Notes under the pieces: model-generated | Told to the model about the DNA's origin: nothing | The model's input: only the letters and a program-made list of their open reading frames with translations | Databases searched by the model: none | From: Curtobacterium flaccumfaciens pv. betae | GTDB lineage: Bacteria > Actinomycetota > Actinomycetes > Actinomycetales > Microbacteriaceae | DNA length: 64,000 nt | Reading direction: 5' to 3' | Assembly: GCF_026241855.1 (NCBI RefSeq) | Contig: NZ_JAPJDC010000001.1 | Span: forward strand, 3,633,706 to 3,697,705 | In this document: positions 6,403 to 45,836 of the stretch, piece after piece | Layout of the letters: each line of letters starts with the position of its first letter | Position numbering within the stretch: the first letter of the stretch is position 1 | Translations under genes and position numbers: made by a program

Positions 6403-7284
6403 ATGACCACAGGCACTGACACCACGAACCGTCCGGCCGCGTCCTCCGGCACCTTCCGCATCGGCGGCGACCTCGAGGTCAACCGGCTCGGCTACGGCAC
6501 CATGCAGCTCACCGGCCCTGGCGTCTGGGGACCGCCGAAGGACCACGACGAGGCGATCCGCGTCCTCAAGCGTGCCGTCGAGCTCGGCGTGAACTTCTTC
6601 GACACCGCCGACTCGTACGGCCCCTACGTCGCCGAGGAGCTCCTCAAGGAGGCCCTGCACCCCTACGGCGACGACGTCGTCATCGCCACGAAGGCCGGCC
6701 TCACCCGCACCGGCCCGAACGTCTGGCCGCCCGTCGGCCGCCCGGAGTACCTCCGGCAAGAGGCGGAGATGAGCCTCCGCCGCCTGGGCCTCGAGCGCAT
6801 CGACCTCTTCCAGCTGCACCGCATCGACCCGAAGGTCCCGCTCGAGGACCAGGTCGGCGAGCTGAAGAAGCTGCAGGACGAGGGCAAGATCCGCCACATC
6901 GGCCTGTCCGAGGTCTCCGTCGACGAGGTCAAGGCCGCGCAGGAGATCGCCGCGATCGTCTCCGTGCAGAACCTCTACAACCTGCAGAAGCGTGACGCCG
7001 AGGAGCTGCTCGACTGGTCCGAGGAGCAGGGCATCGGCTTCATCCCGTGGTTCCCCCTGGCCACGGGTGGCCTGACCGGCGAGGACTCGCCGCTCACCGA
7101 GATCGCCGAGCGCAAGGGCGCCACCCCGGCGCAGCTCGCGCTCGCCTGGCTGCTCAAGCGCTCCCCGGTGATGCTGCCGATCCCCGGCACGTCGAGCGTC
7201 GCGCACCTGGAGGACAACCTCGCGGGTGCCACCGTCGAGCTGACCGACGACGAGTTCGAGGAGCTGGCGAAGCTGGGTCACTGA
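6403..7284 (+). CDS. aldo/keto reductase
   Basis: A 293-residue NADPH-dependent reductase. The catalytic tetrad is D67 and Y72 (FFDTADSYG), K97 (ATKAG) and H139 (FQLHRID). The C-terminal [15 protein letters not shown] segment binds NADPH. It is shorter than the reductase at 2019-3005 because a loop before the last strands is missing, which places it in a different subgroup. The gene stands alone and is followed by a 20-bp-stem hairpin (7325-7368). Confidence 0.93.
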
Positions 7285-7324
7285 CCCCGGGAAGCGACGG
7301 CGGGTCGCGAACGCGACGACCGGT

Positions 7325-7460: not shown

Positions 7461-8033
7461 ATGAGCGTTCGGATGGGCGTACTCGCGCTGCTGGTAGGGG
7501 GACCCGGTTACGGGTACCAGCTCCGGGGTGAGTTCGAGCACCGCACCGGCGGGAGCTGGCCGCTGAACATCGGCCAGGTCTACACGACCCTGGACCGCCT
7601 GGAACGCGACGGCCTCGTGGCCCGCGGTGACGCCGACGACGACGGGCACGTCGTCTACACGGCGACGGACGCGGGTCGCGCCGAGGTGGCGCGCTGGTTC
7701 AGCGAGCCCGTGCCGGCCAAGCGCGGCCGCGACGAGCTGGCGATCAAGTTCGCCCTCGCCGTGACCGTGCCCGGGGTCGACGTCGCCCGGCTGGTGCAGG
7801 TGCAGCGTGGTGCCGCGATCCGGAACCTGCAGGACCTGACGCGGCTGAAGCGGACGACCGACCCGTCGACTGACCTGGCGTGGTCGCTCGTGCTCGAGTC
7901 GATGGTGTTCCAGGCCGAGGCCGAGGTGCGCTGGCTCGACCACGTGGAGTCGAGTGTCGCGCGGTACCGGCCGGACGAGCACCCAGCGGCGCCTGCCAGT
8001 GCCGACGCTGCCGCTTCGCGGAGCGCACGGTGA
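7461..8033 (+). CDS. PadR family transcriptional regulator
   Basis: A 190-residue PadR repressor. The N-terminal winged helix-turn-helix (about residues 5-75) shows GPGYGYQLRGEF and GQVYTTLDRLERDGLV. The C-terminal helical region (about 95-175) forms the dimer and ligand pocket of this family. The ATG at 7461 is preceded by GGGGGAAG. The stop overlaps the start of the ABC ATPase gene by 4 bp (GTGA), so the regulator and a macrolide-export-like ABC system form one operon. Such PadR proteins usually repress the transporter until a toxic ligand binds. Confidence 0.92.
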   Translation: MSVRMGVLALLVGGPGYGYQLRGEFEHRTGGSWPLNIGQVYTTLDRLERDGLVARGDADDDGHVVYTATDAGRAEVARWFSEPVPAKRGRDELAIKFALAVTVPGVDVARLVQVQRGAAIRNLQDLTRLKRTTDPSTDLAWSLVLESMVFQAEAEVRWLDHVESSVARYRPDEHPAAPASADAAASRSAR

Positions 8034-36771: not shown

Positions 36772-37036
36772 CACGTCGGGGACGATGTGTCGTCGTGACG
36801 GCCATGAGTGCGAGTGCACGAACACGTTGCGGGTGTTGTTGTGTGTACGCCAACGCGAGCGAGGTTCCCCAGGAGATCCCGGTGATGACCCAGGCGTCGA
36901 TCCCGCTTCTTCATGGCGTCCCCGCACCCGACGCTGTAAATCGACGGGCTTCCCACGACGCCGCACCGCTGACTCGCCGCCGGGAAAACCGCAGCGGACC
37001 ATCGTCGCCCTGCTGAACGGGCGCCGCTGGTAGCCG

Positions 37037-37631
37037 ACCATTACCCTCAAACTCATCGGCACTCAGGGTTCGCCGGCCGGGGCGCTCGAACTGCTCCGTG
37101 TCCTCGAGCCGGAGCGGCCGGAAGAACTCTGGTACCGCGACAACGACACCGGCCCGCCGGATACGAGGTCCTCCGCTCGTACCGGGACGCCGAGGAGGTG
37201 GTCCGTTCCCGGAGCGACCACAGCCCGTGGGCATCGATCTACCGCGACGTCGGCGACGACAACGACCCGACTGGTGGCGGTTCTGCTTCGAAGTCCTCAG
37301 CAGTGGCGATCGCATTTTCATCTGCGGTTGCGTCGAAGTGCCTGGCTCAACCTGGTTCTGGTCGAATTGGCCACGACCGGTCGACTTCGGCACCTTGACG
37401 TCGGCGACGGTCGGTCCCGCGTGGTACCGCGGCGAGGTATGGGAGCAGCAGCTGCAGCTGCAGCTGCAGACGATCAACGACCCGGTCGCGCAGCTCCGTC
37501 CAGCACTGAACGCAACCCGCTTCGAGGCCGACCAGTTGTGGGGGTACCGGTGGCTGAACCGGTGGAACGACCGGTCGCTGCTGGAGCAATTGCGCACGCC
37601 GCTCTCTGATCCGACTCCGCTTTCGGGTTAG
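37037..37631 (+). pseudogene. frameshifted pseudogene, protein family not recognised
   Basis: Three coding stretches follow one another in three frames: TITLKLIGTQGSPAGALELL onward to about 37159, then GYEVLRSYRDAEEVVRSRSD onward to about 37269, then DWWRFCFEVLSSGDRIFI to the stop at 37629. Each junction is a -1 shift, as from single-base deletions at CCGCCGGA and ACCCGAC. The first stretch begins after TAG with no usual start codon. Joined, they give about 198 residues with a consistent composition (Trp, Arg and Leu rich). Read errors in GC runs are an alternative. Confidence 0.65.
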
Positions 37632-38089
37632 CCGACGGCGGTCAGTGCCGGCAACATCGTCGAGGTACCGCTCTCACCCCATGCGCGGAGGCGTTCTTCT
37701 CGCGCTGGGTCGACGTACCGGAAGCTCTGTGGTGGTTCGAGCCCGATTTCGCTCCGGAGCAGTGCCAGCGGCATGGCCTTCGGCCACCGGATTGGCGAGC
37801 GCACACGCAGGATGGCAGCGTCGTTGACGTTGTCGAGGTACTCCTCGAGCGGTTGCCGATGAATCTGGATCTCATGCCGGTACAAGTCCCATACGGACGA
37901 CGCGGCAGGGCGGTCGATGCCTTCGAGCTCGATGGTGCCGAGGACTGCGCGGTCCGGGGTGCTTGAGTACACGTAGATCGTGGCGGGCGTTGCGACGGCG
38001 GGAAACCGTCGTCGAACCTCGGCGGTCTTCGTGCCCTCCAGCAGTGCGTGTGCGAAGGCGGGCCGGACTGAGAGCAGGATCGATGTCAA
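37628..38089 (-). CDS. ASCH domain protein coupled to GNAT-PIN protein
   Basis: A 153-residue protein with an ASCH (PUA-like) fold. The N-terminus LLSVRPAFAHALLEGTKTAE followed by VRRRFP is the ASCH signature, with the conserved Gly-Thr-Lys and an Arg-rich loop. IYVYSSTPDRAVLGTIEL forms the next strands. ASCH proteins bind RNA or act as nucleoside hydrolases. The TTG start at 38089 is preceded by AGGAG and overlaps the stop of the GNAT-PIN gene by 4 bp, so the two proteins are made together. Confidence 0.85.
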   Translation of the reverse strand: MTSILLSVRPAFAHALLEGTKTAEVRRRFPAVATPATIYVYSSTPDRAVLGTIELEGIDRPAASSVWDLYRHEIQIHRQPLEEYLDNVNDAAILRVRSPIRWPKAMPLALLRSEIGLEPPQSFRYVDPAREERLRAWGESGTSTMLPALTAVG

Positions 38090-40113
38090 CGTGCGCTCCT
38101 GCCTTGGCTCTGGATGAGGTCGTCAAACAGCGTGGACGGTACCTGCCGGAACGAGGGTATCGGGTGCTTCACGTCGTGCTGCTCCAACAGTTCGGCAAGT
38201 TCGGGACCCCCGATCCGGCGGCCTAACAACTCAGTGTCCTCGAACCGTATGACAGTGACTCGTCCGCGCTTGTCGGCAGCTGAGCGCACGTCCCGACGCT
38301 TAAACACCCCGACCTGCTTGTGTCTGCGAAATGCCTCGTCGGGTGATGTGCGCTCGTAACCGAGGCTCCTGGAGTAGGCAACGATGCTCCGAATGGTTTC
38401 CGTGTCGTCCGCAGAGGCGTACCAGAGGATGCGAGCGCCAGGTGGGGGAAGCGCTCGACTGCTCCCGCTGTAATACACGTGTTCTCGCGAGAGGCCCAGC
38501 GCCAACGGTCGGTCGTCTCCCCAGAGCGCTTGCCTCGGGATGCCGAACAGCGGGTAGACGAAGCGCGGCTGGATGGGCGCGATGTATGTCGGTGCCCCTG
38601 CCCGCAAGAGCACCACGGGCCAGAACCGGTGCTCAATGTCTCGCAGCTGCGCTGCGGTCTGGAGTACCTCTGTGGGGTGGTCGGCGAGGAATCGCGATGC
38701 AGGTTCTGCCCGATCGATCACTTCGGCACACAGCTCGTCGTCGAAGCCCTCTGTCCGGAGACCGTCGCGGACGACATCGGCGACTACTGGGTCGGTGATC
38801 TCGACGACGGGCAGCTGGTTCTGACGGGCGACGTGGCGCGTGTGACGAGCGAGCTGGAGCGCGACCGTCGTCGTTTCGCGACGGCGTGCGACTCGCATGA
38901 GCGGAATCACCAGCATCTCGTCGCCAGGATGTTCAGCGAGCATCGCCCAGGGTCGTTCCCGTTCGTCGATGAGAACTCGGGTGGACCTCGGGTGGGATGC
39001 GATTGACGCGCGGATGAGCCGTCGTAGATCGCTGCCTCGTTCGTTCCGCTCGTGGGTGAGGAACGTGTCGACCAGCTGGTCGATCGTGAAAAAAGTTGCC
39101 GGAACCCAGCGCAGGTCGATGTCCTCGATGAGTCTGGACTGGAACACGGGTTGCCCGAGCCGTTGATCGACCTGCTGTATTAGCTCATGCGGACGGAGAA
39201 CGCGAAGCTGGGTGTCGACGGGGAGGTAGGAGTCGGCAAGTCGCAGCAAGCGGGTGTCGTTCGTGACGAAGAACGCCGCGTGTGCGGCAAGCGCGTCAGC
39301 GATGTGATTCAGGTCGTCGCGCAGCGACGGGTCTGCCGCGAGCTCTTCCGGGCCGATTCGTTGCAACAGGACGTCGAGCACTGAAGTATCTTCACGGCGA
39401 ATGGACCGCAACCGAACGAGGTGGTCCGCTCCGGAACGTTGTCGGGAGCGTTCGTCTTCGTCATCAATGCGGTCGATTTCGACGTCAACCTGCGGAGAGA
39501 CGACCGCAGTGATCTCCGCCGCTATCCAGTCTGCGGTGAGGCCAAGGGACGCATCGCGATCAGCGCGATCGAGTTCGGAGGAGCCGTAGAGGTCGGCGAC
39601 GATGTTGGTGTCGTACACAACCAGCGGCAGCCCTGCCCCGAGCGCCGCATCTTCGAACAGGTCAAGCTCTCCGAGCGGCATCCACCAGCGCGTCAGGGTG
39701 GATCCGGCGGCCGCCCTGCCGGCTCGTTCGCCGCGGGGCGACAGTCCCACAGCCGCCCAAAACCGATCCAGCCCGTAATCGCGACGACAGTAGGCGACAA
39801 CGCCAATGGCTTCGGGGTGAGCCTGCACCGCGGCATCAACGAGCATCTTCCCGATGCCCGTCCCGCGGAGACCGACGCAGACGTGCACCAGCTTGATGTA
39901 GCCGGCGCGTGGGACGTCGTAGATGCAATACCCGACGATGTCTCCGCCGACGCGGGCGATGACGACGGTGCCGCGGCCGAGACGGTCCTCGAACGCGGAG
40001 TCCGTTAGGAACCCGAGCGTGGCCCGGTTCGCTTTCGCAAGCAGCAGTAGTTGGTCCCAATCGTCCGGCTTCGCGCTGACATGCTCGAGAACGACGTCGT
40101 GTTGCCCATCCAT
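38086..40113 (-). CDS. multidomain GNAT-PIN protein with PUA-like C-terminus
   Basis: A 675-residue protein from the ATG at 40113. Residues 1-150 are a GNAT acetyltransferase: VVIARVGGDIVGYCIYDV, then the acetyl-CoA loop RGTGIGKM at 83-90. Residues 163-300 are a PIN nuclease with candidate acids D168 (VYDTN), E212, D273 (NHIADAL) and D286 (TNDTR). The remaining 370 residues have no clear assignment; IPRQALWGDDRPLALGLSRE and PPGARILWYASADD resemble PUA/ASCH-type RNA-binding modules. The ASCH gene is coupled at its 3' end. The whole looks like an RNA-acting effector with a modifying domain. Confidence 0.85.
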   Translation of the reverse strand: MDGQHDVVLEHVSAKPDDWDQLLLLAKANRATLGFLTDSAFEDRLGRGTVVIARVGGDIVGYCIYDVPRAGYIKLVHVCVGLRGTGIGKMLVDAAVQAHPEAIGVVAYCRRDYGLDRFWAAVGLSPRGERAGRAAAGSTLTRWWMPLGELDLFEDAALGAGLPLVVYDTNIVADLYGSSELDRADRDASLGLTADWIAAEITAVVSPQVDVEIDRIDDEDERSRQRSGADHLVRLRSIRREDTSVLDVLLQRIGPEELAADPSLRDDLNHIADALAAHAAFFVTNDTRLLRLADSYLPVDTQLRVLRPHELIQQVDQRLGQPVFQSRLIEDIDLRWVPATFFTIDQLVDTFLTHERNERGSDLRRLIRASIASHPRSTRVLIDERERPWAMLAEHPGDEMLVIPLMRVARRRETTTVALQLARHTRHVARQNQLPVVEITDPVVADVVRDGLRTEGFDDELCAEVIDRAEPASRFLADHPTEVLQTAAQLRDIEHRFWPVVLLRAGAPTYIAPIQPRFVYPLFGIPRQALWGDDRPLALGLSREHVYYSGSSRALPPPGARILWYASADDTETIRSIVAYSRSLGYERTSPDEAFRRHKQVGVFKRRDVRSAADKRGRVTVIRFEDTELLGRRIGGPELAELLEQHDVKHPIPSFRQVPSTLFDDLIQSQGRSAR

Positions 40114-40389
40114 GGTGGTCTCATCGTGCCGATCACTAGACGTGAGTAGGACTCGACGCGCCGCTCGGCGCGTGAGGTTGTCAAGGTCAAGGGATTCCCA
40201 ATCGCCGCTCGGGTCCCCGTCAAGCCGCCCTGTCGAATCGAGGACGCGGACTTGAGGGCGTCCGGAATGGCCCGTGTTGAAGACCAGGCGGGTCAGCCGT
40301 GCGTCACATAACGGAGTTCCGGTTCTGACCCACGCCCAGGCTTCGCAACGCTTAGGTCCGGTGTGAGTGGGCATCACTGACGCGCGGCG

Positions 40390-40968
40390 CTAGATGTTGA
40401 TGATCTGCGCCAGGCTCTGCTCGGGCGCGTCGGGCGTGAGCCGCCAGAAGATGGCGATGTTGATCGGGCCGCTGAGAGTGCCGCGTTCTACGACTACGAA
40501 CTCGAATGAACCGCCTTTCGGGACTTCTGTCCAGTCGTCCTGCCCGGAGCGCATCCGCTTCCGCGTTCTGTCGTCGTTGCCTTCGACGTGAGCCCACGCC
40601 CTGTGCCCCGTCCGGTTGAGTGCCATCCACCGCTCCGCGCCTGCGTAGTGGAACTCCCACTCGTCGAACGCGGCGGTCCGCGCCGCCATCTCGACTTGTC
40701 GCTCCTGGGCCGTGGCGCTCCGTTCCGCAGCGTTAGCGGACCGCTCGGAAGCGTGCAGGGCGGCCTGTTCGTGCCGGGCAGCCAGATCACGGGCGCTCTC
40801 TGCCTCGCTGCGGGCCTTTCGAGCCTGGATGGCCTGGTAGCCGGCGAAGACCGTCGCAACTCCCGTAACGATCAAAAGCCCGAGGTTGATGATGATTGAG
40901 GCATCCACTGCGTCACCGTATCGGGGCCTCGGCCGCCGCGACCCGGGCACGTCGGTTGTGCTCGACAT
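40390..40968 (-). CDS. membrane-anchored coiled-coil protein, unknown
   Basis: A 192-residue protein. One membrane segment (about residues 24-46) is followed by a long Ala/Glu/Arg coiled coil (about 48-105) and a C-terminal globular part with WMALNRTGHRAWAHVEG and FEFVVVERG. It is not recognised. Its start lies 9 bp from the start of the plus-strand gene at 40978, so one of the two may in truth begin further in, for example at the in-frame GTG at 40905, just before the membrane segment. Confidence 0.65.
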   Translation of the reverse strand: MSSTTDVPGSRRPRPRYGDAVDASIIINLGLLIVTGVATVFAGYQAIQARKARSEAESARDLAARHEQAALHASERSANAAERSATAQERQVEMAARTAAFDEWEFHYAGAERWMALNRTGHRAWAHVEGNDDRTRKRMRSGQDDWTEVPKGGSFEFVVVERGTLSGPINIAIFWRLTPDAPEQSLAQIINI

Positions 40969-40977
40969 ACTGTTCGC

Positions 40978-41895
40978 GTGACTGACTCAGCGGACGACGT
41001 ATCGATCGGCTCGGAGGATCGCGTCATCTCCGCGATGGTGCTCCCGAGTTTCAACGCGCCCGGCTCGATTCTGCCGCCAACCGAAGTGGAACGCGGCGCG
41101 GTGAAGACCAGCGGCGACTGGCAAGTACTCGGCGCACAGGCGACGACCTGGGAGATCCGCGGAACGCTCGCTGGTGTTGAGCACGGCAGGCTCGCTGAGC
41201 TGTTCGGGTTGGCGGGGGCGGCGGGGGAGCAGCTCGGGCTTGCCGCGACAGCGAGCCGGGACATCGCTCGGTGGCTCGCTGTCATTGAGGACGTGAACGA
41301 TGGATGGGGGTTCGCTACCCGTGCGGCGACGGAACGACTCGTGTCGTATCTGCACTCCGCATCGCATCACTTCGGCAGTGTCGCCACGCGGACGATGCTC
41401 CTCAGGCCGCCGGCGTCCAGCCCGCTGGTCCGGAAGCAGGCGCGGTACGCCAGGGACTACCCGGACCGGCCGGCGCTGTGGACGCCGTTCTCGTCCGACC
41501 CGGCCGCGTTCTTTCCGTTGAATCGGGAAACAGCGCGTGTGCTCCGCCGCGAGGCACGATGCCACGACGCGGAGTGCTTCACGCACGTCTCAGACGCGGT
41601 CTCCTCAGTGACCGTGGACGACCGTTGGGAGGAGATGGTTGGGCGCCGCCACAACGAGTATCACCGGTGGCGCGTGCAGTCCTCGCCGGGGGCGGACCCG
41701 GCGGAGTTCCCGTGGAAGCGTGAAGCGGATACCTTGACGCTGTCAGTGCGGGTGCAGCGTGCAGTGCCGTTCGATCCGATGAGGACGATGAAGCTCGCGG
41801 AGGACGCTCGCGCGGGGTTGCACCTGCTCGCTACGGCGATGCGCACTTGGCTGAGCGTCTGGGAGGAGAGCTGGGAAGAGTTCCTCGCAGGCTGA
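40978..41895 (+). CDS. hypothetical protein, 305 residues
   Basis: No domain is recognised. The N-terminal part (residues 1-75) reads like a beta-rich domain ending GDWQVLGAQATTWEIRG. The remainder is helical, with conserved-looking LYLHS-type His/Ser (SYLHSASHHFG) and DDRWEEMVGRRHNEYHRW motifs. It lacks signal and membrane segments. Codon bias is weaker than in the core genes, consistent with acquired DNA. It is divergent from the coiled-coil gene, with almost no space for two promoters between them. Confidence 0.7.
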   Translation: MTDSADDVSIGSEDRVISAMVLPSFNAPGSILPPTEVERGAVKTSGDWQVLGAQATTWEIRGTLAGVEHGRLAELFGLAGAAGEQLGLAATASRDIARWLAVIEDVNDGWGFATRAATERLVSYLHSASHHFGSVATRTMLLRPPASSPLVRKQARYARDYPDRPALWTPFSSDPAAFFPLNRETARVLRREARCHDAECFTHVSDAVSSVTVDDRWEEMVGRRHNEYHRWRVQSSPGADPAEFPWKREADTLTLSVRVQRAVPFDPMRTMKLAEDARAGLHLLATAMRTWLSVWEESWEEFLAG

Positions 41896-41899
41896 TCGA

Positions 41900-42198
41900 T
41901 CGCCCGCGCGGCGGGCTTGCTCAGGCCGCCGGTGACTGGTGGCTGCATACCTCGCCGGGTTGCGAAGATCACGGCCCTGCATGACGTCAAAGTCGGTGGC
42001 GTCGGCGGTGTGGATGAGGTGGGCCATGAATGTGTCAGCGTCGAACCGGGCATCGGTCCCGTCGACTCGGGCTTCCATCCCAACGAGCGCATCCGCGACA
42101 TCCGAAGGGTGATCTCCGGCGTACAGCCGGTCAACGTCCTTTCGGCTGAGCTTCACTACGGTGCACGACTTCACCAACGCTTCGAACGCGTCTAACAA
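41900..42198 (-). pseudogene. truncated gene fragment lacking its own stop
   Basis: A coding-like frame starts at a TTG (42198) and runs about 90 residues (SRKDVDRLYAGDHPSDVADA, ARFDADTFMAHLIHTADA) with good codon bias. It then passes without a stop into sequence antisense to the 305-residue gene. It has lost its 3' end and has no ribosome site. It is probably the remnant of a larger gene. Confidence 0.45.
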
Positions 42199-42222
42199 TG
42201 TGGGTGAGTCAGGCCCTCGTCG

Positions 42223-42434
42223 TCAGGTTTTTCCGTCCACCATGACAGACACGCCGTTGTGGCTGGCACGTTCGGCGAGTCCGAGCAGACGGTGCGCCGA
42301 GAGAGCGGTAAGTGCGTCGAGCGAGGCGAAGTGGACTGCGTCGGTCGCCGACACATTGAGTGGGCAAATGGCCGTCTGTATCCGTGTGCTTCGGGTCCGG
42401 CGGCCGTAGGGGTCGACCGCCCGAACTGACGTCG
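42223..42434 (-). pseudogene. C-terminal gene remnant, PIN/VapC-like
   Basis: A minus-strand frame with strong coding bias ends at TGA 42225-42223 but has no start. VSATDAVHFASLDALTALSA, then HRLLGLAERASHNGVSVMVD, resembles the last helices and strand of VapC-type PIN toxins. The upstream part is degraded. A broken toxin gene would fit this island. Confidence 0.4.
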
Positions 42435-42536
42435 CTAGATGTAACCGCCCGCGCAGTAGCGCGAGCCGAGCTTCTCCTGGTCAGCGGAGGGGTCGAAAAT
42501 CTCCACGGTCAGGTCTTTGCTTACCAGGGTCAGCAT
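42435..42536 (-). pseudogene. 33-codon gene remnant
   Basis: MLTLVSKDLTVEIFDPSADQ, then EKLGSRYCAGGYI, then a stop. The codon bias is normal and the text reads like the N-terminus of a longer enzyme cut off after RYCAGGYI. It may also be a very small protein; a truncated gene is more likely. Confidence 0.35.
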
Positions 42537-42666
42537 GGACGTCCGTTCGATGCGCTTGCGAGGCGGGGCGAGTGTGCGCATCGGCTTCGTTAAACACATT
42601 TCGGGTCGTGACTCTCGTGCGCCGTATCCCGCCTTCGTGGGGATGCGCTCTCTCTCCTCGGTGCGA

Positions 42667-43764
42667 TTAGTCGTTGAAGGTGCCTGCCAGGTCGACGCAA
42701 AGCCGATTGCCCCACCCGTAGTCGAGCATTCGACGGCGGTGCATCTGGTGAACTGCGACTCCGGGAGCGATGCCGATGGCGGTGGCCTTCCGTCGGATGT
42801 CTGCGTCACTCGTGAGTCCTCGGAATGGCGCGACGCCGGCGTCGCCGAAGAGGGTCCGCATCGCGAACGCGTTCGCGCTCTTCTCTGCCTCGGAGTTTCG
42901 CTGCTTCTCAGAGTTGTACTCGAGGTGCATCTCGCCACGCGGATCGTTGAGGACGTGTCCGAGTTCGTGGAACAGCGTCCAGATGACGAAGCCGTCCTTG
43001 CCCCAGCGGCCGGTTTGCTGGATCACGGGGACACGCTCATCGATCCAGCGGGTCATGCCCAGCAGGGGGAACTTCGATGGAGGGTCCACGACCATGAACA
43101 CGACACCAACTTCGGCGAGCATGCGCGCGATGTCACGAAGCATCGACGAGTTGGGGGTCGCTGCTCGTTCGCGCAGTCGCGGCAATGCGGCGATCAGCTC
43201 GTCCGAGTTGTAGATGTGGGTCCGTCCTGTCTCGAACGTCGGCGTCTGCTCTGCCGCTCGAAGCCAGGTTGAAAGGACTGTTGGTTCGAGCGTCGCCTTC
43301 GAGTCCTTCAGCGCTGCGAGCGCGTAGTCGCCTCGCGTAGCCGTCTCGTGCAGGTGCAGGTAGGCATCCCACGTTCCGCAGCCGTGGTAGGCAAGGAAGT
43401 CCGAGACCAGCCTTCCGGGATCACGCTTCGTGGCGGTCGTGGCGCCGACTGCGCGCAGATAGGTCGCAGCGTTCGGACTGATCTCGTCGACGTGGTCGGC
43501 GAGGCGTTCCTCGTCCTCAATTCGTGCCCGGTCCGCACGGTAGGCCGCCTCGTAGCGGAGCCAGGTCTGCGCCGGGATACCGACGACTCGCTGGAGTCGG
43601 AGCGCGGTGTCCGCGGTGATGGGTGCGCGCCCATTGACGATCTCGTTGACCTGCTTCCGGCTACAGCCAAGAAGGTTCGCGGCGTCAGCTTGAGAGAGAC
43701 CGCGGTCTTCAATCCACTCCTCGAGATACTCTCCCGGGGCAACGGCGTAGTTCGTCTGCGTCAT
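42667..43764 (-). CDS. HigA-like antitoxin: XRE domain fused to ImmA/IrrE metallopeptidase
   Basis: A 365-residue protein. The N-terminal HTH (about residues 8-70) reads GEYLEEWIEDRGLSQADAAN and then LLGCSRKQVNEIVNG, typical of HigA/VapI antitoxins. The C-terminal domain (about 200-365) has the zinc motif HELGH (FHELGHVLN). GGAGGGAGAG stands six bases ahead of the ATG at 43764. It lies directly behind the HigB-type toxin gene. The peptidase domain could cleave itself or another protein on a stress signal. Confidence 0.92.
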   Translation of the reverse strand: MTQTNYAVAPGEYLEEWIEDRGLSQADAANLLGCSRKQVNEIVNGRAPITADTALRLQRVVGIPAQTWLRYEAAYRADRARIEDEERLADHVDEISPNAATYLRAVGATTATKRDPGRLVSDFLAYHGCGTWDAYLHLHETATRGDYALAALKDSKATLEPTVLSTWLRAAEQTPTFETGRTHIYNSDELIAALPRLRERAATPNSSMLRDIARMLAEVGVVFMVVDPPSKFPLLGMTRWIDERVPVIQQTGRWGKDGFVIWTLFHELGHVLNDPRGEMHLEYNSEKQRNSEAEKSANAFAMRTLFGDAGVAPFRGLTSDADIRRKATAIGIAPGVAVHQMHRRRMLDYGWGNRLCVDLAGTFND

Positions 43765-43777
43765 GGTCTCTCCCTCC

Positions 43778-44083
43778 TCAGTGGTAGTCCTCGATTTCGA
43801 CGACCGTCGCTTCGATGGCGGCGAGCGACTTCGCCGGTATCGGATCAACTAGGAGCCGCCAGTTGCCGCTGAGCTCTCCGGCCCAGATCCCGCTTCGATC
43901 GCCCTTCAGGTCGTGCCACGCACCACCAGGGTCATCCCGCGGGAGGTCGCCGATGGTTTCGGCGTTGTTCAGTGCGTTGATGCGGAGCCGGAGCTTCTTG
44001 GCGACGTCGGGGCGCTTGCGCTGCATCTCGCGCTCGTTCGTGCACACCTTCTCGAGACGGTTGTCCTTGTACCGCACTTTCAA
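43778..44083 (-). CDS. higB: HigB/RelE-type toxin
   Basis: A 101-residue RelE-fold toxin. RLEKVCTNEREMQRKRPDVA is the N-terminal helix pair, and LKGDRSGIWAGELSGNWRLL is the HigB core with the conserved Arg and Trp. HigB proteins cut mRNA on the ribosome. The start is a TTG at 44083, with only a weak ribosome site. The antitoxin gene begins 13 bp downstream, giving the toxin-first order typical of higBA. Confidence 0.9.
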   Translation of the reverse strand: MKVRYKDNRLEKVCTNEREMQRKRPDVAKKLRLRINALNNAETIGDLPRDDPGGAWHDLKGDRSGIWAGELSGNWRLLVDPIPAKSLAAIEATVVEIEDYH

Positions 44084-44100
44084 ACGATGTCACCGATCTC

Positions 44101-44113
44101 GTTACACTCTAAC
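44101..44113 (-). promoter_or_regulatory. candidate higBA operator
   Basis: GTTACACTCTAAC (4-bp arms GTTA/TAAC) overlaps TAGAGT, a possible -10 reading into higB. HigA proteins repress their own operon from such short dyads. The arms are brief, so confidence is low. Confidence 0.3.
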
Positions 44114-44342
44114 GCTGTTGCGGGCCCCAGTATGCCTGTTCCGCGACGGATGGACGCCGACCGTGTGGCGCTTCGGTCCGTTCGAAGCGAGATTCGCTCA
44201 CTGGGCTCGTCAGAAGGTTAGACCACCGCAGTGCATCAGCCCGCCACTGGGAGGAGTCCAGTTACCTCGGTGCCCGGAGCGTTTGCAGCATTCGCGCGTT
44301 CATGACCGACGGCCAGGCCCTTCCGCACCGACAACAAGCCGC
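44114..44342. other. non-coding stretch between higB and dnaB
   Basis: About 230 bp in which no convincing gene, tRNA, attachment repeat or hairpin is seen. It marks the change from the island to the core dnaB block. Confidence 0.5.
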
Positions 44343-45707
44343 CTACTGCGGCATGTCGACGAACCGCGAGAACATCCCGTGGAACGCCACGGTGATGGTG
44401 TCCGTCGGTCCGTTACGGTGCTTCGCCACGATCAGGTCCGCCTCACCCTGACGCGGGTTGTCCTTCTCGTACGCCGACTCACGGTGCAGCAGGATGACCA
44501 TGTCGGCGTCCTGCTCGATGGAGCCGGACTCACGGAGGTCGGAGATCGCCGGCTTCTTGTCGGCACGCTGCTCCGGACCACGGTTCAGCTGCGACAGGGC
44601 GATGACCGGCACCTGGAGCTCCTTGGCCATCAGCTTCAGGGCACGCGAGAACTCGGAGACCTCTTGCTGGCGGCTCTCGACCTTCTTGCCCGAGGTCATC
44701 AGCTGCAGGTAGTCGATGACCACGAGCTTCAGGTTGTGCTGCTGCTTGAGTCGGCGGCACTTGGCGCGGATCTCGACGAGCGTCATGTTGGGGGAGTCGT
44801 CGATGAAGAACGGGGCGTCGTTGATGCGGCCGCGGGTCTGCGCGATGGTGGTCCAGTCGCGGGAGTCCACGGTGCCCTTGCGCATGTTCTGCAGCGGCAC
44901 GCTGGTCTCGGCGGAGAGCAGACGCATCGCGATCTCGGCGCGACCCATCTCGAGCGAGAAGAAGGCGGCGGTCTGGTCGTGCTTGATCGCGGCGGCGCGG
45001 CACAGGTCGAGCGCCAGCGTCGACTTGCCCAGGGCGGGGCGGGCGGCGACGATGATGAGCTGTCCGGGGTGGAAGCCGTTCGTCAGGCCGTCGAGCTGCG
45101 CGAACCCGGTCGGCACGCCCGTCATCTGGCCGTCGCGGCCCTTGGCGGCCTCGATCTCGTCGAGCGCGGCGGAGATGGCGTCGGTCAGCGGGACGTAGTC
45201 CTCGGTCTGCACACCACCGGCGACGTTGTAGACCTCGGCCTGCGCGCTGTTGACGAGGTCGGTGACCTCACCCTCAGACGCGTAGCCCATCTGCACGATG
45301 CGGGTACCGGCGTCGACCAGACGACGGAGCACGGCCTTCTCGGCGACGATGCCGGCGTAGTAGCCGGCGTTCGCGGCGGTCGGCACCATGCTCGTGACGC
45401 TGTGCAGGTACTCGGCGCCGCCGGCACGGGACAGCAGGCCGGTCTTGGTCAGCTCGTCGGTGACGGCGATGACGTCGGTGGGTTCACCGTGGGAGTAGAG
45501 CGACAGGATCGCGTCGAAGATGACCTCGTGCTTGGGGACGTAGAAGTCCACACCGCGGGCGGTCTCGATGACGTCGGCGACGGCGTCCTTCGACAGGAGC
45601 ATGCCGCCGATGGTCGACTGCTCCGCGAGCATGTCGTGCGGCGGGGTGCGTTCCATGCCGCGGTCCGCGTAGTCCTGCGGTGCGGGCTCAAGATGTGCGA
45701 TCGACAC
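44343..45707 (-). CDS. dnaB: replicative DNA helicase DnaB
   Basis: A 454-residue hexameric helicase. The N-terminal domain (about residues 20-130; PHDMLAEQSTIGGMLLSKDA) is followed by the linker and the RecA-like domain. Walker A is ARPALGKST, Walker B VVIDYLQLM, and SQLNRGPEQR and DLRESGSIEQD come after it. No intein interrupts it, although actinobacterial dnaB genes often carry one. The GTG at 45707 follows GGAGAG. A cluster of DnaA-box-like 9-mers lies upstream. Confidence 0.97.
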   Translation of the reverse strand: MSIAHLEPAPQDYADRGMERTPPHDMLAEQSTIGGMLLSKDAVADVIETARGVDFYVPKHEVIFDAILSLYSHGEPTDVIAVTDELTKTGLLSRAGGAEYLHSVTSMVPTAANAGYYAGIVAEKAVLRRLVDAGTRIVQMGYASEGEVTDLVNSAQAEVYNVAGGVQTEDYVPLTDAISAALDEIEAAKGRDGQMTGVPTGFAQLDGLTNGFHPGQLIIVAARPALGKSTLALDLCRAAAIKHDQTAAFFSLEMGRAEIAMRLLSAETSVPLQNMRKGTVDSRDWTTIAQTRGRINDAPFFIDDSPNMTLVEIRAKCRRLKQQHNLKLVVIDYLQLMTSGKKVESRQQEVSEFSRALKLMAKELQVPVIALSQLNRGPEQRADKKPAISDLRESGSIEQDADMVILLHRESAYEKDNPRQGEADLIVAKHRNGPTDTITVAFHGMFSRFVDMPQ

Positions 45708-45836
45708 ACGCTCTCCTCTGTTGACGACACGGACCTGAACCGGCGGGACAGCACCCACCGGCCGGAACCCGCACCCCTGTTTCTACCCCCGGCGACCGAC
45801 ATCCCCGAGTCGCTCGCCCAAGCTACGGCCCCAGAG

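Follow-up and report, generated by a model that had tools for sequence, protein, structure and literature searches.

Overlapping GNAT-PIN-GNAT-ASCH and ASCH genes in Curtobacterium flaccumfaciens pv. betae: a four-domain variant among the (PIN)-GNAT-EVE/ASCH operons, predicted conflict systems

Introduction

A stretch of 64,000 nucleotides from Curtobacterium flaccumfaciens pv. betae (assembly GCF_026241855.1, contig NZ_JAPJDC010000001.1; hereafter the window, with positions counted from its first nucleotide) contains two overlapping genes on the minus strand, one for a protein of 675 amino acids (38086..40113) and one for a stand-alone ASCH protein of 153 amino acids (37628..38089). What do these genes do together, and do they belong to a system that is already known? 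A first-pass annotation, made from the sequence alone, had proposed an undescribed system in which the large protein cuts or modifies RNA and the ASCH protein serves as sensor, specificity factor or antidote. We find that the pair is real, well conserved and strictly paired, and that, as a four-domain variant, it belongs to a system that had been predicted before and is uncharacterised. Its membership in the family of (PIN)-GNAT-EVE/ASCH conflict systems is nearly certain.

Results

The large protein has the order GNAT1-PIN-GNAT2-ASCH-like according to its sequence and predicted structure, in other words an extra N-terminal GNAT domain in front of a known three-domain core. GNAT1 (residues 1-150; 39664..40113, minus strand, as are all features of the pair) has a RimI/Ard1-like GNAT fold with the motif R83-x-x-G86-x-G88, and it is missing from the known three-domain form. 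It is followed by the PIN nuclease domain (residues 160-312; 39178..39636) with the acids D168, D/E212, D267 and D286, by GNAT2 (residues 328-466; 38716..39132), which has a GNAT fold without the acetyl-CoA pyrophosphate-loop motif, and by a C-terminal part predicted to fold as an ASCH/EVE-like domain of the PUA superfamily (residues 490-670; 38104..38646). GNAT1 of the window protein matches Pfam PF00583 above the cut-off (26.0 bits vs 20.7), and its best fold matches in the predicted model are protein N-terminal acetyltransferases, a likeness of fold that does not give the substrate. PIN_3 is below threshold in the window protein itself (E 0.15); in alignment A1, which holds 33 large proteins including that of the window, PIN was matched in 12/33 and PIN_3 in 11/33 (E<=0.01), the window protein not being among them. 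Because the fold matches of the whole model were filled by GNAT1, with PIN not among the matches listed, residues 318-670 were folded separately, and this model gave a GNAT fold (328-466) and then an ASCH/EVE fold (506-670), with ASCH closest. Thus the GNAT domain, the PIN domain and the PUA-like C-terminal part named in the first-pass annotation hold, whereas the second GNAT-fold domain had been missed.

At the level of profile comparison, the two adjacent genes match a system listed in PADLOC, PDC-M11A for the large protein (E 2.1e-15, in two stretches) and PDC-M11B for the partner (E 7e-23). We take PDC to mean 'phage defence candidate', which by name is a candidate only. Three-domain actinobacterial proteins (loci L038 and L039), built as the PIN-GNAT-EVE proteins of Bell et al. 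(2020, PMC7641849), match the PDC-M11A profiles over almost their whole length, and residues 165-675 of the window protein align collinearly with these two. Six PDC-M11A profiles, 357-501 positions long, were matched by the scanned proteins, and none of the best stretches listed lies in GNAT1.

The same pair is recognisable in the literature. Bell et al. (2020, PMC7641849), crediting Iyer et al. (2013), predict in their treatment of these operons that (PIN)-GNAT-EVE + ASCH operons are toxin-antitoxin or defence systems. They state that nearly all (PIN)-GNAT-EVE operons include a gene for an ASCH protein and that PIN-GNAT-EVE genes have type I restriction and other defence systems in their vicinity; an AAA_17 ATPase is often, not invariably, included, and no module of such systems had been characterised at the time of that account. 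The window pair shares with these operons the order of PIN, GNAT-like and C-terminal PUA-superfamily domains, the adjoining ASCH gene, and the defence genes beside several copies. It differs in the added N-terminal GNAT1 with its canonical motif and in a C-terminal domain whose fold is closest to ASCH; furthermore, AAA_17 was not found among the six window proteins scanned, while AAA_5 genes follow the pair on two cyanobacterial plasmids. Because GNAT1 precedes PIN, the window pair is a variant and not a plain member of the (PIN)-GNAT-EVE class. The idea of an undescribed system was consequently rejected, since Bell et al. (2020, PMC7641849, in the part on these operons) and PADLOC PDC-M11 already list the pair, though it has been predicted and not characterised. 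The terms 'GNAT-PIN' and 'two GNAT' were not found in the running text of Bell et al. (2020, PMC7641849), and we found no description of the four-domain form in the open-access literature beyond (PIN)-GNAT-EVE and PDC-M11. It seems that the form with the additional acetyltransferase domain is undescribed.

Conservation of the catalytic residues was followed through the family. In alignment A1 the residues D168, N170, D174, E212, D267 and D286 are invariant (33/33). Among 37 distinct four-domain proteins, obtained from 46 rows by merging identical C-terminal stretches and leaving out the later copies L133-L136, D168 is present in 35/37, D or E at position 212 in 35/37, D267 in 35/37 and D286 in 37/37, and all four acids occur together in 35/37, so the claim of intact PIN acids is upheld by the alignments. 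The two proteins without the full set are the plasmid copies of Calothrix (L094, 8965-11103) and Nostoc (L095, 450-2579), and both have an intact GNAT1 motif. PIN cutting would therefore not be essential everywhere, and this cyanobacterial branch argues that GNAT1 may work usefully without it.

The two GNAT domains differ in the acetyl-CoA loop, R/QxxGx[G/A/S], which GNAT1 shows in 28 of the 35 proteins containing the segment and GNAT2 in none of the 37 distinct four-domain proteins. For this reason GNAT2 is probably no normal acetyltransferase, and the canonical acetyltransferase domain appears to be supplied by GNAT1. The inner GNAT of the three-domain proteins likewise has the strict motif in 0/7 and carries a GxxxGELL- or RGELL-like stretch instead, which weakens the idea that GNAT2 decayed only after GNAT1 had been gained. 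In one locus (L022, 7938-9955) the GNAT1 part is in another frame than the rest, and so GNAT1 may have been lost there while PIN-GNAT2-ASCH stays open, or there may be a sequencing error.

The association of the two genes is strict. Scanning 84,980 species genomes yielded 28 loci, and further loci came from other searches. An ASCH open reading frame (ORF) was present in the same locus in 57/57 loci with the large gene, duplicates included; weak GNAT-only matches (L005-L009, low-scoring rows) and the fragments L037 and L040 are outside this count, and both fragments likewise have an ASCH gene. A protein search with the mixed alignment A4, in which the best 8000 candidates by words in common were scored, returned 32 proteins, none of them new. 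In the reverse direction, ASCH matches were obtained in 8 of 249 family genomes. Of these matches 6 are full-length, and all 6, the window counted, adjoin a large gene; the other 2/8 are fragments without a large gene in the 14 kb examined. These short ASCH-like ORFs (L079, ~7463-7657; L080, ~6977-7318) look like decayed copies. Chance neighbourhood was rejected by the forward and the reverse linkage test.

The two genes have also diverged together. Protein distances, calculated from match columns only, correlate with a Mantel r of 0.863 for 35 four-domain pairs and of 0.846 for 42 pairs when the three-domain ones are included, with 0/2000 permutations as high, though correlation alone leaves a shared species history possible. 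Two copies occur together in each of three genomes (L015/L019, L017/L020 and L084/L093), and in all three each ASCH protein has its nearest neighbour among the ASCH proteins of its own partner's clade, not in the other copy of the genome. L084 is identical to L030 over the last 400 residues, and the placement of its ASCH was read via L030 in both trees; its genome, G704, has a four-domain and a three-domain copy (L084 and L093), each with its own ASCH gene. The neighbourhood survey and the co-divergence agree with the linked two-gene module of the first-pass annotation.

At the level of the nucleotides, the start of the ASCH gene overlaps the stop of the large gene in a TTGA (38086..38089), which makes translational coupling likely, and its AGGAG ribosome-binding site lies within the large gene (38096..38100), 6 nucleotides before the TTG; both elements and the gene borders are as first annotated. 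The ATG at 40113 is backed by two relatives (P0003 and P0004) that start at the same residue. Elsewhere the large protein has full-length relatives at identities of 93-94% and 82%, and the pair is therefore more than chance ORFs. The ASCH start is placed 3 nucleotides before the last base of the large gene (NTGA) in 22/33 loci examined. The Chloroflexi locus L036 departs from this, with its ASCH ORF starting ~350 nucleotides further, behind another called ORF, and the Calothrix and Nostoc plasmids have gaps of ~20 nucleotides between the genes.

The partner belongs to the family of the Zymomonas mobilis ASCH protein (ZmASCH). Its Pfam ASCH score is slightly below the cut-off (18.6 vs 21.2); its assignment as an ASCH protein is borne out by the motif GxKxxExR (G19, K21, E24, R26), invariant in 32/32 aligned partners (the window ASCH and 31 of 120 listed relatives), and by the match of the family profile to Z. 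mobilis ASCH (PDB 5gus; E 2.8e-25 over 135 residues). The cleft residues R32, Y47, Y90, Q127 and S128 of the Z. mobilis structures (PDB 5guq/5gus) correspond to R26, Y41, Y84, Q121 and S122 of the window partner, all invariant in alignment A3, and its K53 aligns with R47. According to the binding and cleavage results reported for ZmASCH (PMC5615036), the protein binds nucleic acid and weakly cuts single-stranded RNA, binding is lowered by Y47F, K53E and, less, S128A, and cutting by Y47F. In contrast to the window partner, it was studied in that work (PMC5615036) as a protein alone, its RNase is weak and its metal site is given as unknown. The partner is homologous to the fused C-terminal domain of the large protein (hhalign probability 96.2, E 2.6e-9), and the Calothrix partner matches the M11A profiles too.

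Distribution of the pair is patchy. The host genome is 3.78 Mb in size, and among named relatives those closest to the large protein come from Curtobacterium; the pair was found in 5/66 genomes of the genus and not in the same-species genome. In the class, matches were obtained in 10/394 genomes, at 6 four-domain and 5 three-domain places; one of these genomes carries both forms. Restriction to actinobacteria was rejected, as the four-domain form, with an ASCH gene in each case, is also in a Chloroflexi metagenome-assembled genome (L036), on the two cyanobacterial plasmids (L094, L095) and on a Prevotella replicon (L096).

In the window the pair lies in a variable segment (36779..44339) which was delimited by blastn against the syntenic loci L127 and L128 from the conserved left flank to dnaB; the left junction differs in other relatives. 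The segment is missing from the matching site of the same-species genome, where other DNA is in place, and this comparison confirmed the island of the first-pass annotation. dnaB (44343-45758) borders the variable site, and five spanning relatives each have different DNA there. Among six fetched genomes, the pair was not at the site in 5/5 spanning ones (the sixth ends at a contig border) and nowhere in any of the six. A copy of the pair lies ~400 bp after dnaB in Ruicaihuangia (L018). When the 20-kb region of a second Curtobacterium genome (L081) is compared with window positions 20001-50000, the sole match of more than 120 bp is 37626-40186, at 90% identity, and because this match spans just them, the two genes with ~70 bp upstream look like a unit. 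A small protein with one likely membrane segment is encoded at 40390-40968 in the window, with no family above cut-off, and another such protein is encoded at L129 8373-8957; the two are alike by eye and share the same variable site.

Defence genes are found beside several copies. Ten hand-picked proteins from six loci were scanned, and 8 of them had PADLOC matches. L077 has a type IIG restriction enzyme with its specificity subunit as neighbours, L011 an AAA ATPase with NsnB as its best match and Old among the weaker ones, and L013 TnsB and TniQ of a Tn7-like set. Beside L012, 105 residues of a 1211-residue ORF match PADLOC Aga_REase-PNTD1-PNTD2, presumably argonaute-associated. In L078 the neighbours match a DrmD-like helicase and, weakly, type III restriction, whereas 2 scanned neighbours of L015 had no PADLOC match. 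A gap of 25 bp separates the helicase ORF of L078 (1878-4742) from the earliest start of the large gene, which follows on the same strand, and this suggests that the pair may there share an operon with a DISARM-like set. The Calothrix plasmid carries, in this order, a cytosine methylase, an Eco29kI-like enzyme, the pair, an AAA_5 ATPase and a McrC-like gene.

In the window itself, a HigB gene and a gene for a HigA-HTH/IrrE-peptidase protein (42667-44083, minus strand) were recognised by PADLOC, Pfam and TIGR matches. The toxin-antitoxin locus noted earlier is supported by both scores (HigB PF05015, 28.4 vs cut-off 27; HigA TIGR02607, 61.6 vs 47.7). The two genes resemble the first two parts of PD-lambda-2 as outlined by Vassallo et al. 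(2022, PMC9519451; PDLC03982, E 1.8e-12), which would be a separate system adjoining the pair. The third part of PD-lambda-2 was not found in the 5 ORFs by HigBA, the 2 ORFs left of the pair or one arbitrary stretch of L081, and the dnaB flanks examined of other genomes of the genus gave no tblastn match to HigB.

Discussion

A role of the pair in conflict or defence is probable. From sequence and model, the domains, the intact PIN acids, the motif in GNAT1 and not in GNAT2, the two homologous ASCH-type domains, the linkage, the co-divergence, the patchiness and the defence neighbours are established. A mechanism can be proposed in which the two ASCH domains, fused and stand-alone, would be the reading part: they would bind a base or RNA that marks infection, either a modified base of phage nucleic acid or a modified or damaged tRNA, and would hold or release the large protein. 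After release, PIN would cut RNA, most likely tRNA or mRNA, GNAT1 would acetylate the same target, aminoacyl-tRNA or a protein of translation, and translation would halt before the invader multiplies, with GNAT2 as a structural spacer common to the three-domain form. GNAT1 shares its fold with GNAT toxins that acetylate charged tRNA, though the best fold matches of the predicted model are N-terminal acetyltransferases. As translational coupling would yield the ASCH protein from the same message, its amount would match that of the large protein, as is needed of a restraining or co-reading subunit; the ASCH protein may be a restraint, a co-reader or a second RNase. This division of labour among ASCH readers, PIN and GNAT1 is tentative, and we give the whole explanation, a four-domain conflict-system variant with this mechanism, a probability of about one half. 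The RNA-acting effector with an ASCH partner suggested in the first-pass annotation is consistent with the linked module, the PIN acids and the presence on both proteins of PUA/ASCH folds, a class in which some members bind RNA or bases, although the system is not undescribed.

The alternative that survives best is a toxin-antitoxin addiction module, with the large protein as a constitutive RNA-targeting toxin, ASCH as the antitoxin and phage defence as incidental, and we hold it to be unlikely. To our knowledge ASCH is not a known antitoxin fold, and 675 residues in four domains are large for a type II toxin. The coupled two-gene operon, its patchy distribution and the HigBA locus nearby would suit such a module, as does the classing of these operons as putative toxin-antitoxin systems in the relevant part of Bell et al. 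(2020, PMC7641849), but restriction systems adjoin two copies (L077 and L094) and the partner family has a member for which RNA binding and cutting are reported (ZmASCH, in the assays of PMC5615036).

An improbable explanation is modification of nucleic acid, an idea of base acetylation which Bell et al. (2020, PMC7641849), where they discuss it, credit to Iyer et al. (2013): GNAT1 would acetylate a DNA or RNA base and the ASCH/EVE domains would read the product, so that self is marked against restriction enzymes that accompany the pair. The Calothrix copy, with its PIN acids lost and its GNAT1 motif intact, is flanked by a type II restriction-modification set on one side and by AAA_5/McrC-like genes on the other, which would suit such a function, and there are base-reading folds on both proteins. 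However, the PIN acids are kept in 35/37 proteins, no restriction gene was found among the scanned ORFs of the window island, and the GNAT1 fold resembles protein N-terminal acetyltransferases, even if a fold gives no substrate. Housekeeping or stress turnover, with PIN and an RNase-like ASCH degrading damaged or aberrant RNA, is very improbable, because despite the weak single-stranded-RNA nuclease described in the assays of ZmASCH (PMC5615036) and the intact PIN acids (35/37) the pair is very patchy (5/66 genus and 10/394 class genomes, the three-domain form included) and its copies lie on plasmids and in a variable island.

Several points weigh against the proposed conflict system itself. 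GNAT1 deviates from the strict motif in 7/35 proteins, and the PIN acids are lost in both cyanobacterial plasmid copies. The order of effector and then ASCH is the reverse of most type II operons, in which the antitoxin comes first. No relative was found in 50,697 phage records, and among viral contigs 29 stretches fit the motif pattern and none encoded a relative, so there is no phage link in these sets and a phage-borne origin is without support. The neighbours were hand-picked without random control loci, and enrichment therefore rests on Bell et al. (2020, PMC7641849), in what they state of gene neighbourhoods. Because ZmASCH cuts single-stranded RNA in the reported assays (PMC5615036), the ASCH partner may act as effector and not as restraint, and by analogy with that protein a further role as an RNase itself is suggested. 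Finally, our searches of the open-access literature yielded no toxicity, binding or phage data for a complete system.

A further reading of the conflict system is a dual-effector one, in which one pair of ASCH base readers would serve two exchangeable effectors within one protein, the PIN nuclease and the added acetyltransferase. Most forms would keep both, and the two cyanobacterial plasmid copies, with the PIN acids gone and GNAT1 kept, would be reader-guided acetyltransferases. We know of no case of a reader-guided acetyltransferase as a mode of immunity, and we regard this reading as doubtful.

Predictions of the parent family go back years, and our searches of the open-access literature found no experiment on a complete system. 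The four-domain form offers three handles on it: its acetyltransferase domain has a canonical motif, a branch in which PIN is naturally dead separates the activities, and the partner has a solved RNA-cutting relative. If the acetyltransferase is an effector, base reading would be linked to acetylation in immunity.

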